NCBI GenBank assembly: GCA_030698575.1
Contig: JAUYMQ010000586.1
Span: 1-8,754 of the forward strand
Reading direction: 5' to 3'
From: Deltaproteobacteria bacterium
Lineage (GTDB): Bacteria > JAUYMQ01
Length of the DNA: 8,754 nucleotides
Part shown: piece by piece, positions 1,124 through 8,754 of the stretch
Position numbering within the stretch: the stretch's first letter is position 1
Layout: each line of letters begins with the position of its first letter
Notes under the pieces: generated by a model
The model's input: only the letters and a program-made list of their open reading frames with translations
What the model was told of the DNA's origin: nothing
Database searches by the model: none
Position numbers and translations under genes: made by a program

Positions 1124-1332
1124 GGATCTTCCTCCCGCGCGCGCCGCAGCCAGATGATCGAGCAGAGGGCGGCGACGAAGACGTGGGCGAGCGTGGCGAT
1201 GACGACCCAGTCGGGAAGGCCGAACCAGATGGCGGGAATCGCGCCGGTGGGGCGGTACCAGGGGATCGAGATCGCGTAGAGGACAATGAAGGCGGCGGCG
1301 AGGAGCAAGTCGCTACGGCGGCGGGGGGTCAC
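1120..1332 (-). CDS. DUF3311-type small membrane protein paired with the symporter
   Basis: A 70-residue protein with two predicted membrane helices, about residues 8-25 and 42-62. A short loop between them holds PWYRP and the IWFGLPDWV stretch, both typical of DUF3311. It ends in a charged cytoplasmic-type tail (RRAREEDP). Such proteins are commonly encoded just before an SSS symporter, and a role as an accessory subunit or folding partner is inferred, not proven. The GTG start at 1332 overlaps the TGA of the response regulator, and its own TGA overlaps the symporter GTG, so translation is probably coupled on both sides. An AAGGA motif at 1342-1346 lies nine bases upstream of the start, within the regulator coding sequence. 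Size, topology and position all agree; only the biochemical role is unknown. Confidence 0.85.
   Translation of the reverse strand: MTPRRRSDLLLAAAFIVLYAISIPWYRPTGAIPAIWFGLPDWVVIATLAHVFVAALCSIIWLRRAREEDP
1329..1332 (-). other. GTGA stop/start overlap (regulator / DUF3311)
   Basis: The regulator's TGA (1331-1329) shares two bases with the GTG of the DUF3311 gene (1332-1330). Four-base overlaps of this type usually allow terminating ribosomes to reinitiate, so the two proteins are probably made in linked amounts. Seen directly in sequence; the coupling is inferred. Confidence 0.85.
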
Positions 1333-2810
1333 TTTTCGCGTTCCTTCTCCGTGATCCGGTAGCGCTTCAGCTTCTCCATGAAGGGGCGCAGCGAGATTCC
1401 GAGATCCTTCGCCGTCTGGGTTCGGTTCCAGCCGTGGCGATTCAGTTCGCGCACGATGACCGTTCGCTCGAAGGATTGAACCCGTTCCTTCAGGGAGCCG
1501 GACCAGCCTGCCCCCTCCTCCGCCACAACGTCCTGCTCATCCCCGGATTGCGCTGAGGCCTGCTTCATCTTGTCCGAGAGCTGGGCCGGGGCGATGGTTT
1601 CGCCCGCCGGCACCAGCGCCATCACGCGCTGCACCTCGTTCTCCAGCTCCCGCACGTTGCCCGGGAAATGGTAGGCCTGCAGGAGATCGAGCGCCTCGGG
1701 CGAGATCCCCGGCACGCTCTTCTGATCACGTTTCCCGTACTTTTCGAAAAAGTGCTCGACCAGAACCGGAATGTCTTCCCGCCGTTCGCGGAGCGGCGGC
1801 ACATGGATGGGAAAGACGTGGAGGCGGTAGTAGAGGTCCTCGCGGAACTGCTTCGACTTCACGGCGGCCTCCAAATTGCGGTTGGTGGCCGAGATCACCC
1901 GGACGTCAACCTTTCTGGAGGTCGCGTCGCCCACCCGCTTGATCTCCCCGTCCTGCAGCACGCGAAGGAGCCGCACCTGGAGAGGCATCGGCATGTCTCC
2001 GATCTCGTCCAGAAAAATCGTCCCGCCGTCGGCGACCTCGAAGAGCCCCTTCTTGTCCTCCACGGCGCCGGTGAATGCGCCCTTCCGGTGACCGAACAGT
2101 TCGCTTTCGAGAAGGTTCTCCATGAGGGCGCCGCAGTTCTGGGCGACGAAGGGCTTCGAGCGGCGCGGGCTGTTGTAGTGGATCGCCCGGGCAATCAGCT
2201 CCTTCCCGGTTCCGGTCTCACCCGTGATGAGCACCGTGGTCGACGAATCGATGACGCGCGTCAGGAGCTCGAAGGTTTCCTGCATGGCGGGGGAGCGCCC
2301 CACGATCTGATCGAAGGTGTAATGCCCTACAACCTCGCGTTTCAGCTCGACGTTTTCGCGCATCAGGCGCGCGGTCAGATCCTGCAACTCGGAGGTGAGC
2401 TTCCTGTTGTCGCGGCCCAGCTCGTAGGCCTCGATCGCGGTCTTGATGTTCTGGTGCAGGTCCGCCTCCTCCCAGGGCTTCGTGAGGTAGCGGTAGACCT
2501 TGCCCGTATTGATCGCGTCGATGGCCGAATCGATGTCGGTGTAGCCGGTGAGGATGATGCGGATGGCGGAGGGCCGAAGCGCAACGCTCTGGTCGAGGAA
2601 CTGCGCGCCGCTCATCTGCGGCATGCGCTGGTCGGCGATGATGAGGGAAACGTCCCGCTTTCGCAGGATCTCCAGGCCATCGGCGCCGCTCTGCGCCGTC
2701 AGCACATCGTAGTCGTTGCCCAGGGTGTATTCGATGAGCTTCAGGATGTCCGGTTCGTCATCGACGAACAGAATCGTGTGGCGCTCCTGATCGCCGCTCT
2801 TGTCGGCCAC
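1329..2810 (-). CDS. NtrC-family sigma-54-dependent response regulator (HupR/HoxA-like receiver)
   Basis: Two-component transcription activator of 493 residues from the GTG at 2810. The receiver domain (about 12-125) has the acidic pair D17-D18, phosphoacceptor D60 in ADQRMP, T88 and K111 in TKPW. The DQRMP and YRYLTKPW signatures are typical of HupR/HoxA-like receivers. A charged, probably coiled linker spans about 131-161. The AAA+ domain follows, with Walker A GETGTGK (197-203), the sigma-54 contact loop GAFTGA (244-249), Walker B with D268-E269, the REDLYYRL arginine-finger region near 323-330 and GNVRELEN near 384-391. A Fis-type helix-turn-helix ends the protein (about 445-486). All residues for ATP hydrolysis and sigma-54 remodelling are present. 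It is the first gene of an operon with the DUF3311 protein and the symporter, so it probably controls uptake or responds to it. No kinase is visible. An in-frame ATG at 2831 would add seven residues but lacks a Shine-Dalgarno; the GTG at 2810 has GGAG five bases upstream. Confidence 0.95.
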   Translation of the reverse strand: MADKSGDQERHTILFVDDEPDILKLIEYTLGNDYDVLTAQSGADGLEILRKRDVSLIIADQRMPQMSGAQFLDQSVALRPSAIRIILTGYTDIDSAIDAINTGKVYRYLTKPWEEADLHQNIKTAIEAYELGRDNRKLTSELQDLTARLMRENVELKREVVGHYTFDQIVGRSPAMQETFELLTRVIDSSTTVLITGETGTGKELIARAIHYNSPRRSKPFVAQNCGALMENLLESELFGHRKGAFTGAVEDKKGLFEVADGGTIFLDEIGDMPMPLQVRLLRVLQDGEIKRVGDATSRKVDVRVISATNRNLEAAVKSKQFREDLYYRLHVFPIHVPPLRERREDIPVLVEHFFEKYGKRDQKSVPGISPEALDLLQAYHFPGNVRELENEVQRVMALVPAGETIAPAQLSDKMKQASAQSGDEQDVVAEEGAGWSGSLKERVQSFERTVIVRELNRHGWNRTQTAKDLGISLRPFMEKLKRYRITEKEREK

Positions 2811-2815
2811 TTCCG

Positions 2816-2819
2816 CTCC
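2816..2819 (-). promoter_or_regulatory. Shine-Dalgarno deciding the regulator start
   Basis: GGAG, within a GGGGAG run at 2816-2821, lies five bases before the GTG at 2810. The upstream in-frame ATG at 2831 has no comparable motif. This favours the shorter protein beginning VADKSGDQ. Confidence 0.6.
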
Positions 2820-2869
2820 CCATTTACACATGCCCGGCAGGATCCCGGCGCTTCTCGCGCAAGATCGAG

Positions 2870-3061: not shown

Positions 3062-4210
3062 ATGAAATCGGCCAGCCTTATCGAGACCAAAAACGCGCTT
3101 GAAGATCTGGCCGGGGCGCTCGCGGGGATCCCCGAAATCGCCATCGACACCGAGAGCAACAGCTTCCACAACTACCACGACCGCATCTGCCTCATCCAGA
3201 TAAGCATTCCCGACAAGGACTTCATCATCGATCCGATCGCGGTGCCCGACCTGGGCCCCCTGAAGACGATTTTTCTCGCCGAAGAGACCCAGAAGATCTT
3301 CCACGCAGCCGAGAACGACATCCTGCTGCTGAAGAAGCACCACGGCTTCGAGTTTCTGAACGTCTTCGATACGCTGCTGGCCGCCCAGATACTCGGCCAC
3401 CGGGAGGTGGGTCTGGCCTCGTTGCTGGCGCGGCTGTTCGACATCCGCCTGGACAAGGGGGAGCAGCGGAGCGATTGGTCGCGCAGGCCGCTGTCCGCCG
3501 ACCAGATGCTCTACGCCGTGCACGACACGCACCATCTCATCCGGCTCAGGGACACGCTTCTGGAAGAACTCCGGAACGCGGATCGCCTCGAAGCGGCCGA
3601 GGAAGAGTTTCAGCGGCTTGCAGAGAAATGCCCCGTCGAACGCCGTCCCGACGCCTCCGCCTATCTCCGGATCAAGGGCTCGAAGAAGCTTGCCCCGCGC
3701 GGCCGCGGCGTGCTCCAGGCGCTCTTCCACTGGCGAGAGCGAACCGCGCGGTCGCTCGATCGGCCGCCCTTCCGGGTGCTCTCGAACGAGACCCTGCTCG
3801 AGCTGAGCCAACTCACGCCGGCTTCCTGGAACGGCGCGGGGCGCATCCGGGGGGTCACGCCGCGCATCATCGGACGCTATGGCGACGAGATCCTCGCCGC
3901 CATCCGGGATGGCCTCGAGAAGGGGGAGGTCCGGGCCCCGCGGCCGGCACCGACCGAGCGCCGGGAGCGCGACGAATGGACCGACGAGATGGACGGGCGT
4001 TTCCGCCGGTTGCGTGAATGGCGGAACCAGCGCGCCGAATCGCTGGACGTCCAGCCCTTCATCGTTGCGCCCAACCGGCTGCTCGTGAGCCTGGCCCGTC
4101 TGGCGCCGGAGTCCATCGAAGCACTGCAGGACGTGCCCGGCATGGCTGCCTGGCGTGTCCGCGACTACGGCAGCGAGATCCTGGACCTCTTCCGGAACAT
4201 TCCCGGCTGA
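3062..4210 (+). CDS. rnd: Ribonuclease D (3'-5' exoribonuclease, DEDDy)
   Basis: Hydrolytic 3'-5' exoribonuclease that trims tRNA precursors and other structured RNAs in the cytoplasm. The protein has 382 residues, close to the usual family length. The exonuclease domain (about 4-175) shows Exo I with D29 and E31 in IDTES, Exo II with D86 in HAAENDILLL, and Exo III with Y151 and D155 in YAVHDTHHL, so the DEDDy metal-binding set is complete. Two HRDC domains follow, about 212-285 and 311-380. Each has the pattern of an arginine-rich first helix, a FRVL or FIVA strand position, and a late GRYGDEIL or RDYGSEIL helix. Both HRDC domains are also found in E. coli RNase D. The ATG at 3062 has only a weak GGAT six bases upstream. 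The gene stands alone, divergent from the regulator operon and convergent with the NpdG-like gene. Identification is firm. Confidence 0.95.
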   Translation: MKSASLIETKNALEDLAGALAGIPEIAIDTESNSFHNYHDRICLIQISIPDKDFIIDPIAVPDLGPLKTIFLAEETQKIFHAAENDILLLKKHHGFEFLNVFDTLLAAQILGHREVGLASLLARLFDIRLDKGEQRSDWSRRPLSADQMLYAVHDTHHLIRLRDTLLEELRNADRLEAAEEEFQRLAEKCPVERRPDASAYLRIKGSKKLAPRGRGVLQALFHWRERTARSLDRPPFRVLSNETLLELSQLTPASWNGAGRIRGVTPRIIGRYGDEILAAIRDGLEKGEVRAPRPAPTERRERDEWTDEMDGRFRRLREWRNQRAESLDVQPFIVAPNRLLVSLARLAPESIEALQDVPGMAAWRVRDYGSEILDLFRNIPG

Positions 4211-4942: not shown

Positions 4943-6178
4943 TCACCCCTGTTCGCGGATGATATTCTGGTCGCGAAGCTTTGCAATTTCCTCGGACGAG
5001 TAGCCGGCAGACGTGAGTATTTCCGCCGTGTGTTCCCCTAGCTCCGGCGCGCGTGCGCGGATGGCCGCCGGGGTCTTCGAGAGCCGCACCGGCGTTCCGA
5101 TGGCACGCAGCCGGCCCGCCACGGGATGATCGAACTCTTGGATGAGCCCGTTCTGGATTACCTGGGGGCTGCTGGTCGCCTCGGCGTAATCGTAAACCGG
5201 CCCCGCGATGAGGTCGGAGGCCTCGAGCAGGGCGAGCCACTCGGCGGTCGTCTTCTTTCGGAAAACCTCCTCCATGCGCGGATAGAACTCGCCCTCCCGT
5301 CCCGCGCGGGTCATGGGACTGTCGTAGTCGGGATTGCCGACGAGGTCTTCAAGCTTCAGCACGTGGCAGAGCGCGTCCCAGCGGGTTTCGCCTGAGGCCG
5401 TCATGTTGAAGACCCCGGAGATGACCAGGGCGCCGTCGGAAGTGTCGAACCGGCGCCACACGTCGCCGTCGAGGTTCTTCCCGGCGCCCACCCGCGACGG
5501 GACGACGCCGCACATGAGGTAGGTCGATATCTCCCAGGTCTGCATGGCCATCGTCGCGTCGATCATCGCGACATCCAGCTCCTGCCCTTCGCCCGTCCTG
5601 AGCCGGTGCACGAGCGCCGAAAGAATGCCGATGGCGCCGTAAAGCGCCGTCGCCTGATCGCCGATGGTGGCGCCGGCCGGCAGCGCCGATCCCTCGGTCT
5701 CGCCTGTCACCGACATGAGGCCGCTCATCGCCTGCGCCACGAGATCGAAGCAGGGGCGCTTGGCCCAGGGCCCCTCGCGCCCGAAGCCCGTCACGTGCAG
5801 GTAGATGATGGCCGAATTGACCGCATTCACGTCGGCGTAGCCGAGCCCCAGCGACTCCATGATTCCCGGGCGGAAGTTCTCCATCACGACATCGCAATCG
5901 CGCGCCAGCCGGAGCAGCACCTCTTTCCCCTCGGGGGTCTGATAATCGATGGCGATCGATCGCTTGTTGCGGTTGAGCGCCTGAAAGTAGGACGACGCGG
6001 GAAGATTGGGGGTGGGGTAGTAGCGCCCCAGATCGCCGATGCGCGGGTTCTCGACCTTGATGATCTCGGCGCCGAGATCTCCGAGATGCATCGAGCCCGC
6101 GGGTCCGGCCTGGAAACGCGTGAAGTCGAGAATTCGGACGCCCGCCAGGGGGCCCTTGGCGGCGTTCACTTCGCTCAT
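4943..6178 (-). CDS. Class III CoA-transferase (CaiB/BaiF family)
   Basis: Moves coenzyme A from one acyl-CoA to another carboxylic acid through an aspartyl-CoA thioester intermediate; the substrate is not predictable. The protein has 411 residues, typical for the family. Near the N-terminus it has GVRILDFTRFQAGP (13-26), LGDLGAEIIKVENP (32-45) and GDLGR, which is the family's CoA-binding start. NRNKRSIAIDYQ (69-80) and MENFRPGIMESLGLGY (99-114) follow. The catalytic aspartate is predicted at D174 in TIGDQATALYGAIG, and GEGQELDVAMIDA (196-208) completes the core. The ATG at 6178 has AAGGA seven bases upstream and gives a start aligned with the family. A longer in-frame extension to 6583 has no family similarity and is rejected. 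The gene is the first of a two-gene unit with the NpdG-like gene. Such enzymes often serve degradation of carnitine, oxalate, steroids or aromatic acids. Confidence 0.95.
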   Translation of the reverse strand: MSEVNAAKGPLAGVRILDFTRFQAGPAGSMHLGDLGAEIIKVENPRIGDLGRYYPTPNLPASSYFQALNRNKRSIAIDYQTPEGKEVLLRLARDCDVVMENFRPGIMESLGLGYADVNAVNSAIIYLHVTGFGREGPWAKRPCFDLVAQAMSGLMSVTGETEGSALPAGATIGDQATALYGAIGILSALVHRLRTGEGQELDVAMIDATMAMQTWEISTYLMCGVVPSRVGAGKNLDGDVWRRFDTSDGALVISGVFNMTASGETRWDALCHVLKLEDLVGNPDYDSPMTRAGREGEFYPRMEEVFRKKTTAEWLALLEASDLIAGPVYDYAEATSSPQVIQNGLIQEFDHPVAGRLRAIGTPVRLSKTPAAIRARAPELGEHTAEILTSAGYSSEEIAKLRDQNIIREQG

Positions 6179-6397: not shown

Positions 6398-6401
6398 GGA
6401 G
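6398..6401 (+). promoter_or_regulatory. Shine-Dalgarno deciding the TTG start of the lipoprotein
   Basis: GGAG lies six bases before a TTG at 6408. The frame from that TTG begins directly with a lipoprotein signal peptide. No in-frame ATG or GTG occurs between here and the signal sequence, so this TTG is the best-supported start. Confidence 0.65.
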
Positions 6402-6407
6402 ACAGGG

Positions 6408-8754
6408 TTGCCCCGAGTCGTCGCCGCCGCCTGCCTCGCCCTTCTCGTCGCCCTCGCGGGGTGCGTGAAGAAGCAGGTCGCGCCTCCCATCGCCGGCGAA
6501 GGTCGCCTCAAGCCCGGGCAGGAAGCGCTCATCCCCGGCACACCCACCGCTGAGGGCGAGGCCGTTGCTCTGCCTCGCCTCATGGCCGGCGCCCCGCGCG
6601 CCGTCCTCTATCTCCAGATCGATCCGATGTCGGCCGGGTACGCCCGGCGCCTCGGCTGGGATTGCGCCGACGAGGCCGCGGCGCGGCCGGGTGAGATCGC
6701 CTGTTTCACCGCCGTCGTGAGCCACAAGCCGGGGACGGCCTCCTCAGGCGACGCCACGCTGACCCAGAAGCTTCCCGCCGGCCTTGCGCCGCTCGACACG
6801 GTGCCCTCGGCGGGGCTTCACTGCGCCGATGAGGCGGGGGCGCTCACCTGCGACATCGCGCCCCTCGAGGGGCGCCAGTACGTGACCCTGGCAATCCGCG
6901 CGCGCGTCGTCGCAGGCGCAGGGGCGGGCGCGCGGCTTTGCACCAGCGCCGCCCTCGAGAGCCCGAGGTCGATCGCGCGGGCAAAAGCGGCGCCCGACAC
7001 GCCGCTCGGCGCGCCTCTCGAGGCGTGCGTCACCGTGAGCGCGCCGCCGGCGCCACCGCCACCGCTTGTACCGGCTCCGCCACCACTGGCGCCGCCGCCG
7101 CCGATCCCGGAACCGAAGCCGGTCGTGCCGCCACCCGCGCCCCCGCCTCCTCCGGCCGCGGAGCCCGCTCCACCGCCACCTCCTCCTCCGCCCCCGCCGC
7201 CGCCCGCGCCGGTGCTCCGCCTCTCGAAGAAGCGGATGGATGCCGCCGACGCAAAAAAACTTGGCTGGACTTGCGACGCCGATCCCGTCGAGGCCGGCGG
7301 CTTCGCGTGCTTCGAGGTGCGGATAGCGCATCAGGCGGGGACAGCCCCCTCGAAAGTTTCGGCACTCACCGACACCCTGCCCGCCGGCCTCGTCATTGAA
7401 CAGATCGATACGGCCGGAATCTCCTGTCGCAGCAAGACCGCCCCGCTCGCCTGCGAAGTCTCGTCGCTCGACGGGGACGAGGAAGCGCGTCTCTCCATCC
7501 AGGCAAGGGTCGCGGAGAACGCCGGCGCGGACGCGCCGCTTTGCAACCGCGTCGCGCTCGAAAGCCCGGGCGCGAAGGTCGAGCCGGCGGCCACCGCGGA
7601 AGCCTGTATCAGCGTGCGCAAGAAAGTACCGCCGAAGCTGCGCTTCGAGAAGACGCGCCTCGGGGCAAGCATCGCCGAAGAGCTGGGCTGGGCCTGCGCG
7701 GCGGGCGAGGCGAAGCCGGGAGAGAGTGTCTGCTTCGAGGTGACGCTGACTCACGCGGGAGGCGATGCGCTCGCGTCGGCCGAGATTCGCGACGCGCTTC
7801 CGGCGGGTTTGACGCCGGCTGACGTGGCGGCAACGGCCGGAACGACCTGCGTCGCAGCTGCAACGCCGATCGTCTGCAGCACGCGCGAGATGAAGGCAGG
7901 CGATCGCGCCGTCATTCGCATCCGCGCCGAGATCACAGCCGAAGCGCCGGCGGGCCAGACCCTCTGCAACGAGGCCCGGGTTGACGCGCCCGGCGCCGGC
8001 GTGGAGCCCCGGACGAGTGCAACGGCCTGCGTCACCGTGGTCCTCCCGCCGCCTCCGCCGCCGCCTCCGCCACCGCCTCCTCCACCCGCGCCCCCGGCGC
8101 CAGAACCAGCGCCACCGCCGCCTCCGCCGCCGCTGCCGGCGCCCGTGCTCGATCTCGGGAAGACACGGATGGGCCTGAGCGAGGCTCGCCGGCTCGGCTG
8201 GACTTGCGACGCCGATCCCGTCGAGACCGGCGGCCAGGTCTGCTTCGAGGTGACGATTGCGCACGAAGCGGGAACCGGGCCCTCCGAGCCCTCGACGCTC
8301 ACCGACACGCTCCCGCCCGGCCTGGCCGTCGAAGAGATTGATTCGTCCGCCGCGCTCGACTGCCGCACCGACGAGAACCGCATCACGTGCACCGTCGCGC
8401 CGCTCGACGGCGGAGACAGCGCCAATCTTCACGTTCGGATGAGGGTCGAGGACGACGCGCCCGCGGAGATGCCGCTCTGCAACCGCGCGGGGCTCGAAAG
8501 CCCCGGCGCAACACTGCACCCTGCGGCCTCCACGGAGGCCTGTGTCAGGGTGCGCGCGAAGGTGCCGCCCGTGCTGCGCTTCGAGAAGACGCTTCTGGGC
8601 GCAAGCGAGGCCTCGGCACTGGGCTGGGAATGTGCAACCGGAGAGGTGAAGCCGGGAGAGCGCGTCTGCTTCGAGATCACGCTGCGCCACATCGGGGGCG
8701 ACCCCTTCCCGCCGGCTGAGATCCGCGACCTGCTTCCGCGCGGACTTGTCTTCG
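6408..8754 (+). CDS. Large modular lipoprotein: cysteine-rich DUF11-like modules with polyproline linkers, 3' end beyond window
   Basis: Function unknown; an exported, lipid-anchored, probably surface structural or adhesive protein is inferred. The first 782 residues are present. Residues 1-19 form a lipoprotein signal peptide with one Arg, a hydrophobic Ala/Leu/Val core and the lipobox LAGC, acylated at C19. V20 is not Asp, so outer-membrane sorting is expected if E. coli rules apply. A low-complexity segment (20-65) leads to module 1 (about 66-211), polyproline linker 1 (213-268), module A1 (269-about 409), module B1 (about 410-546), linker 2 (547-579), module A2 (580-about 721) and module B2 (about 722 to the edge). 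Each module carries a DUF11-like L.D.LP.GL strand and an LC(N/T) strand. Each complete module has six cysteines: C86, C99, C139, C148, C178, C207; C289, C301, C340, C349, C379, C400; C430, C442, C481, C490, C520, C541; C600, C612, C652, C661, C691, C712. The start is TTG with GGAG six bases upstream. It could be an adhesin, stalk or envelope scaffold. Confidence 0.85.
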   Translation, partial: MPRVVAAACLALLVALAGCVKKQVAPPIAGEGRLKPGQEALIPGTPTAEGEAVALPRLMAGAPRAVLYLQIDPMSAGYARRLGWDCADEAAARPGEIACFTAVVSHKPGTASSGDATLTQKLPAGLAPLDTVPSAGLHCADEAGALTCDIAPLEGRQYVTLAIRARVVAGAGAGARLCTSAALESPRSIARAKAAPDTPLGAPLEACVTVSAPPAPPPPLVPAPPPLAPPPPIPEPKPVVPPPAPPPPPAAEPAPPPPPPPPPPPPAPVLRLSKKRMDAADAKKLGWTCDADPVEAGGFACFEVRIAHQAGTAPSKVSALTDTLPAGLVIEQIDTAGISCRSKTAPLACEVSSLDGDEEARLSIQARVAENAGADAPLCNRVALESPGAKVEPAATAEACISVRKKVPPKLRFEKTRLGASIAEELGWACAAGEAKPGESVCFEVTLTHAGGDALASAEIRDALPAGLTPADVAATAGTTCVAAATPIVCSTREMKAGDRAVIRIRAEITAEAPAGQTLCNEARVDAPGAGVEPRTSATACVTVVLPPPPPPPPPPPPPPAPPAPEPAPPPPPPPLPAPVLDLGKTRMGLSEARRLGWTCDADPVETGGQVCFEVTIAHEAGTGPSEPSTLTDTLPPGLAVEEIDSSAALDCRTDENRITCTVAPLDGGDSANLHVRMRVEDDAPAEMPLCNRAGLESPGATLHPAASTEACVRVRAKVPPVLRFEKTLLGASEASALGWECATGEVKPGERVCFEITLRHIGGDPFPPAEIRDLLPRGLVF
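7044..7211 (+). repeat. Polyproline linker 1 (low-complexity CCN tract)
   Basis: Encodes residues 213-268 of the lipoprotein, nearly all Pro with scattered Ala, Glu, Lys, Val and Leu. The longest uninterrupted run is 12 prolines (255-266). Codons mix CCG, CCA, CCT and CCC, so the DNA is imperfectly repetitive and the protein composition appears selected rather than produced by recent slippage of one unit. It separates module 1 from the first A-B pair. Confidence 0.9.
7212..8144 (+). repeat. Tandem super-repeat unit 1 (module A - KVPP - module B - polyproline linker)
   Basis: A 933-base (311-codon) in-frame block. It opens with VLRLSKKRM and contains LGWTCDADPVE. Module A joins module B through KKVPP, and B opens with LRFEKT and LGAS. 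The same order recurs immediately in unit 2. A 30-base identity at 7263-7292 against 8196-8225 shows duplication at DNA level. Confidence 0.85.
8046..8144 (+). repeat. Polyproline linker 2 (low-complexity CCN tract)
   Basis: Encodes residues 547-579, opening with 14 consecutive prolines (547-560) and then alternating Ala/Glu/Pro. It is shorter than linker 1 and separates the two A-B module pairs. Mixed proline codons again argue for selection on the protein. Confidence 0.9.
8145..8754 (+). repeat. Tandem super-repeat unit 2, incomplete at window edge
   Basis: Second copy of the A-B block. The offset is 933 bases in module A and 936 bases at the start of module B (7638 against 8574), so one codon was gained or lost since duplication. 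The window ends about 60 residues into module B2; a third linker and more units may follow. Confidence 0.8.

Follow-up and report, generated by a model that had tools for sequence, protein, structure and literature searches.

A predicted lipoprotein with six-cysteine CLIPPER (DUF11) modules and proline-rich spacers

We identified a gene encoding a predicted bacterial lipoprotein that combines six-cysteine modules of the DUF11 family with proline-rich linkers. The modules belong to a known and recently characterised family: DUF11 has been renamed CLIPPER (Costa et al., 2025; PMC12617251). What is new here is a six-cysteine, helix-inserted version; the CLIPPER family itself is known. The product is probably an exported diderm lipoprotein serving as a long stalk or spacer of cross-linked CLIPPER modules; we infer its bonds, surface exposure and function. 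A preliminary description of the sequence had recognised no characterised protein of this architecture; an uncharacterised status is not supported for the module itself, as a CLIPPER crystal structure (9IFR) is already published (PMC12617251). That description also overlooked an isopeptide triad in three modules (A1, B1 and A2), the loss of this triad in a fourth (M1) and an LGWxC helical insertion.

The analysed stretch of DNA (the window) is an entire contig (C638, 8,754 nt) of a 4.13-Mb genome whose assembly is fragmented into 653 contigs (completeness 91.6%, contamination 4.6%). The lipoprotein gene (6408–8754, plus strand) starts at a TTG codon, with a GGAG at 6398–6401, 6 nt upstream. 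Its frame stays open for 782 codons up to the contig end, so that the gene is truncated at its 3' end. The predicted N-terminus, MPRVVAAACLALLVALAGC, contains a signal peptide (6408–6464) with the lipobox LAGC (residues 16–19), in which Cys19 (codon 6462–6464), immediately after LAG, would bear the lipid. Lipidation is predicted from this signal peptide together with the presence of LspA in the genome (E 2.0e-41). A search of the genome's contigs found the same modules on no other contig; because the window is itself a complete contig, the full gene cannot be recovered.

The mature protein is predicted to begin with the lipid-bearing cysteine and a tether of 45 residues (6465–6599), followed, on the same strand, by M1, linker 1, A1, B1, linker 2, A2 and B2. 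It thus contains four complete modules and one partial module, which the proline-rich linkers divide into M1, A1–B1 and A2–B2. M1 (6600–7046) is a six-cysteine, DUF11/CLIPPER-like module with Ile (6618), Gln (6765) and Thr (6942) in the triad columns, so that all three isopeptide residues are lost. Linker 1 (7047–7208) has 54 residues, 69% of them proline, and linker 2 (8049–8141) has 31, of which 81% are proline; the lipoprotein with polyproline linkers first described is thus borne out. The other complete modules, all six-cysteine DUF11/CLIPPER domains, are A1 (7209–7625; Lys 7227, Asp 7371, Asn 7545), assigned from its predicted structure, triad and cysteines, B1 (7632–8048; Lys 7650, Asp 7791, Asn 7968) and A2 (8142–8561; Lys 8160, Asp 8304, Asn 8481). 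B2 (8568–8754; Lys 8586, Asp 8727) contains the first two cysteines and is cut at the contig end after 62 residues. The joints within the A–B pairs consist of two residues (VP) between the module boundaries.

Successive cysteines are spaced by 12, 39, 9, 30 and 21 residues in A1 and B1, by 12, 40, 9, 30 and 21 in A2, and by 13, 40, 9, 30 and 29 in M1; in B2 the first interval is 12, after which the contig ends. Our recount agrees exactly with the spacing originally reported, including the longer last interval of M1. The protein has 28 cysteines: 26 in-register module cysteines, one in the lipobox and one within the signal peptide. A DNA motif encoding [A/G]..(L/F)GW.C(8)G(4)C[FY] matches four times in the window, with 0 matches expected from 200 shuffles. 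Protein identity is 57% between A1 and A2 and 69% between B1 and B2, against 36% between A1 and B1, suggesting that the A–B pair was probably duplicated as one unit; M1 and A1 are 42% identical. The modules are homologous duplicates, and the repeated cysteine spacing was therefore inherited by duplication and does not constitute independent evidence for each module.

The whole protein matches Pfam DUF11 (Pfam accession PF01345) with an E value of 1.2e-32 and 113.1 bits, against a gathering cut-off of 24.6. Scored singly, A1 (28.3 bits), B1 (39.0 bits) and A2 (29.7 bits) exceed this cut-off and M1 (22.2 bits) falls just below it, which supports the DUF11 identity suggested earlier. An AlphaFold2 model of A1 (pLDDT 92.8, pTM 0.87), built with only the window's own modules, is mostly beta with a helix at residues 12–17. 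The model has the CnaA-like, Ig-like beta-sandwich fold that characterises DUF11/CLIPPER domains, in line with the fold originally proposed. Its best PDB match is the CLIPPER structure 9IFR (Foldseek E 3.8e-8, TMt 0.82; Z 14.5, rmsd 1.8, 117 residues aligned (VIA)). In a tandem model of A1–B1 (pLDDT 89.2, pTM 0.65), the B1 half also resembles 9IFR (Z 15.6, rmsd 1.9, 121 residues aligned). The preliminary description had proposed a rigid rod. The rigidity is uncertain, as a tandem pTM of 0.65 establishes no rigid relative orientation of the modules.

Sequence searches of the PDB with the single protein and with a profile of its own modules returned chance matches only. A mixed DUF11 profile found 9IFR and the Aureispira grappling hook protein GhpA. 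We rejected GhpA as a functional analogue because the match covers generic DUF11 sequence. Pfam and structural matches to integrin alpha were read as a common Ig-like fold and not as close kinship.

9IFR is the crystal structure of a domain of the Acinetobacter silvestris adhesin B9T28_05395 and contains an intramolecular Lys715–Asn806 isopeptide bond with Asp748 as the putative catalyst (PMC12617251). The Lys715Ala change lowers the unfolding temperature from ~80 C (wild type) to ~45 C, and the bond also makes the domain resistant to protease (PMC12617251). Aligned with DUF11 domains from other genomes, Lys7, Asp55 and Asn113 of A1 fall in the conserved K, D and N columns of the family, and a profile alignment places the corresponding residues of 9IFR in these columns too. 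In the HMMER alignment the position of the conserved Asp is Lys+34, against Lys+33 by the published numbering (Asp748) (PMC12617251). Among the other DUF11 domains, non-gap residues are K in 87/106, D in 124/143 and N in 114/135, and 78 of the 95 domains that span all three columns have K, D/E and N/D (70/86 without duplicates). Judged by sequence, A1, B1 and A2 contain the Lys/Asp/Asn triad that marks DUF11/CLIPPER domains, and the truncated B2 still includes the Lys and the Asp; the bond itself is a prediction.

We compared the modules with 140 unique domains of the DUF11 family. These come from 41 loci picked by profile score, with several domains drawn from one gene, so that the frequencies given here do not represent a population and the p values err on the optimistic side. 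None of the 140 has cysteines at all six module positions and 82 have none, in agreement with the earlier remark that DUF11 domains usually have fewer cysteines. The window modules also contain an insertion of ~14 residues with an ‘A..LGW.C’ helix between strands A and B; the insertion columns of A15 and W20 are occupied in 0/140 other domains. The distance from Lys to Asp is accordingly 47–48 residues in A1, B1 and A2, against 34 in most other DUF11 domains. All five modules have His after strand B (His41 in A1, codon 7329–7331) at a position that is Asn in 131/140 other domains and His in none.

Co-occurrence of cysteines in the same 140 domains points to how the six may pair. C4 is present in all 25 domains with C3 (p 5e-23) and C5 in all three with C6 (p 3e-4), both p values being optimistic for the reason given above. 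Only one domain (L100) has both C1 and C2. No association was found among the 140 domains for C2–C3 or C4–C5, and we thus read the pairing in sequence order. In the A1 model, C73 and C82 lie in adjacent short strands (71–73 and 80–84). Cysteine co-occurrence and strand positions support the pairing C1–C2, C3–C4 and C5–C6, strongly for C3–C4 and weakly for C1–C2, and make the three disulfides per module of the preliminary description plausible. In 29.7% of CLIPPER domains, the isopeptide bond is accompanied by disulfides (PMC12617251).

In addition to LspA, the source genome encodes Omp85 proteins, DsbB and several DsbA-like thioredoxin-fold proteins; VKOR was not found in it. These genes make both disulfide formation and lipid anchoring feasible. 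On one contig (C576), a DsbA-like domain match lies ~170 bases from that of DsbB, and these two closely spaced genes (G000:C576:575–1596, minus strand) likely form an oxidative-folding pair.

These observations can be combined into a model of the protein. Each module would fold as an Ig-like beta-sandwich of the CLIPPER (DUF11) type. An intramolecular isopeptide bond, catalysed by the Asp of a ‘D-x-L-P’ motif, would link the Lys of the first strand to the Asn of a late strand in A1, B1, A2 and probably B2. The C1–C2 disulfide may fasten the inserted LGWxC helix or loop to strand B, C3–C4 may close a hairpin, and C5–C6 may link the late strands beside the isopeptide Asn. M1, closest to the membrane, would have retained its cysteines and lost the isopeptide residues. 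The polyproline spacers would set the two-module A–B units apart. The array may thereby resist heat, protease and force, and hold the lost C-terminal part, possibly a binding or wall-associated domain, off the membrane.

CLIPPER domains are typically the stalks of surface fibrillar adhesins (PMC12617251), and the window protein, with its signal peptide and at least five modules, shows the export signal and the tandemly repeated stalk domains that mark this class. The gene lacks its 3' end and the portion present contains no adhesive or second anchoring domain; the stalk function is therefore assigned by family analogy. A location inside the cell envelope is possible, if doubtful: an inner- or outer-membrane lipoprotein could serve as a periplasmic spacer, with disulfides made by DsbA/DsbB and polyproline segments that span the peptidoglycan or extend to it, keeping a C-terminal domain there. 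The lipobox and the LspA, Omp85, DsbB and DsbA-like genes fit a diderm periplasmic route, and no feature observed proves surface export. The usual place of CLIPPER domains in surface stalks argues against such a spacer, as do the at least four cross-linked modules, which would seem to exceed the usual need.

The chemistry of the modules can also be read in other ways. We think it unlikely that the modules are held by disulfides alone, with Lys, Asp and Asn kept as family features and the insertion and the Asn-to-His change altering the core so that no isopeptide bond forms. In favour of this reading, the insertion and the His substitution are found in 0/140 other domains, and the bond is missing from some DUF11 domains (PMC12617251); however, the triad is jointly kept in A1, B1 and A2 and jointly lost in M1, and the fold closely matches 9IFR. 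That the cysteines serve in metal binding, redox activity or intermolecular cross-linking instead of stable disulfides within each module is very improbable. The sequence alone is compatible with such roles, but C3–C4, C5–C6 and, in one case, C1–C2 co-occur in other DUF11 domains, C73 and C82 sit on neighbouring strands of the A1 model, and disulfides are common in CLIPPER domains (PMC12617251).

Searches for relatives of the six-cysteine module found none in viral contigs, in plasmids or, by peptide pattern, in GTDB genome contigs. A DNA motif scan of the GTDB genome contigs returned 59 stretches. Stops interrupt most of their translations, in which no module is visible, and no stretch reaches E 1e-3 against the module profile (best 0.0027). 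Given the stops and the lack of a profile match, we read these stretches as chance. Profile searches of 386 broadly chosen genomes and of a phylum of 95 genomes identified only generic DUF11 domains, with matches starting after the LGWxC region; a further phylum (232 genomes) gave no match of any kind, which is uninformative alone. A second match in the source genome was rejected as a low-complexity match to a subtilase with a polyproline stretch. This subtilase-like protein (L002, G000:C590), which has Ig-like repeats, is a second polyproline-jointed protein of the genome.

The proposed search for identical cysteine spacing thus yielded no homolog with the insertion in the collections searched. 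These results fit, without proving, confinement of the six-cysteine, helix-inserted DUF11 module to one lineage, given that the source genome is the sole representative of its phylum among the genomes searched and that the contig collections may omit close relatives. In the open-access literature on DUF11 we found no published description of an architecture with six cysteines, a lipid anchor and polyproline linkers. There is an even chance, in our judgement, that the modules represent a distinct CLIPPER subfamily, marked by an isopeptide bond and three disulfides per module, a disulfide-pinned helix insertion, a lipoprotein with polyproline spacers, a disulfide-only M1 and occurrence in one poorly sampled lineage.

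The remainder of the window encodes a sodium:solute symporter that is cut by the contig start, then a small ORF and a sigma-54-dependent response regulator (1329–2831, minus strand) with receiver, AAA+ and Fis-type HTH domains. These are followed by an RNase D-like gene (3062–4210, plus strand) with a 3'–5' exonuclease domain and two HRDC stretches, an F420-dependent NADP oxidoreductase-type gene (Pfam accession PF03807; 4236–4907, minus strand) and, adjoining the latter, a family III CoA-transferase (~4943–6178, minus strand).

Should both types of bond form, every module would contain four intramolecular cross-links. The modules would then offer a test of how load is shared between isopeptide and disulfide bonds within a single small domain, and might yield highly stable protein scaffolds. 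M1 without the triad and A1, B1 and A2 with it provide a natural, clean comparison within one protein. The stalk proposed here would also widen the known range of CLIPPER stalks, adding a diderm lineage that is under-sampled and a lipoprotein mode of anchoring.

Several known systems resemble the window protein in part. A search with the whole protein gives three matching stretches for DUF7933 (Pfam accession PF25564; 3.2e-7); single modules score under the DUF7933 cut-off, and DUF11 scores higher. DUF7933 is a sister isopeptide family with the same Lys/Asp/Asn arrangement as CLIPPER (PMC12617251). The isopeptide-forming pilin domains of the RrgB/BcpA/EbpB type are fold neighbours of the A1 model (Z 11–12), and TIGR04226 matches weakly, below its cut-off; these pilins differ in being Gram-positive and sortase-assembled. 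We know of no lipobox and no six-cysteine pattern in them. The L100 domain (genome G084) shares equivalents of C1–C2 and C3–C4, and its triad columns hold K, D and N/D; it differs in its C1–C2 spacing and in lacking C5–C6 and the LGWxC insertion. The CLIPPER domain 9IFR shares the CnaA-like/Ig beta-sandwich, the Lys-Asp-Asn triad, exported tandem repeats and the presence of a disulfide. Its single CTTC disulfide lies in the last strand and it lacks the inserted helix, whereas the window modules have six cysteines, the ~14-residue A..LGW.C insertion and His in place of Asn after strand B, in a protein that is predicted to be lipid-anchored at its N-terminus and contains polyproline spacers.
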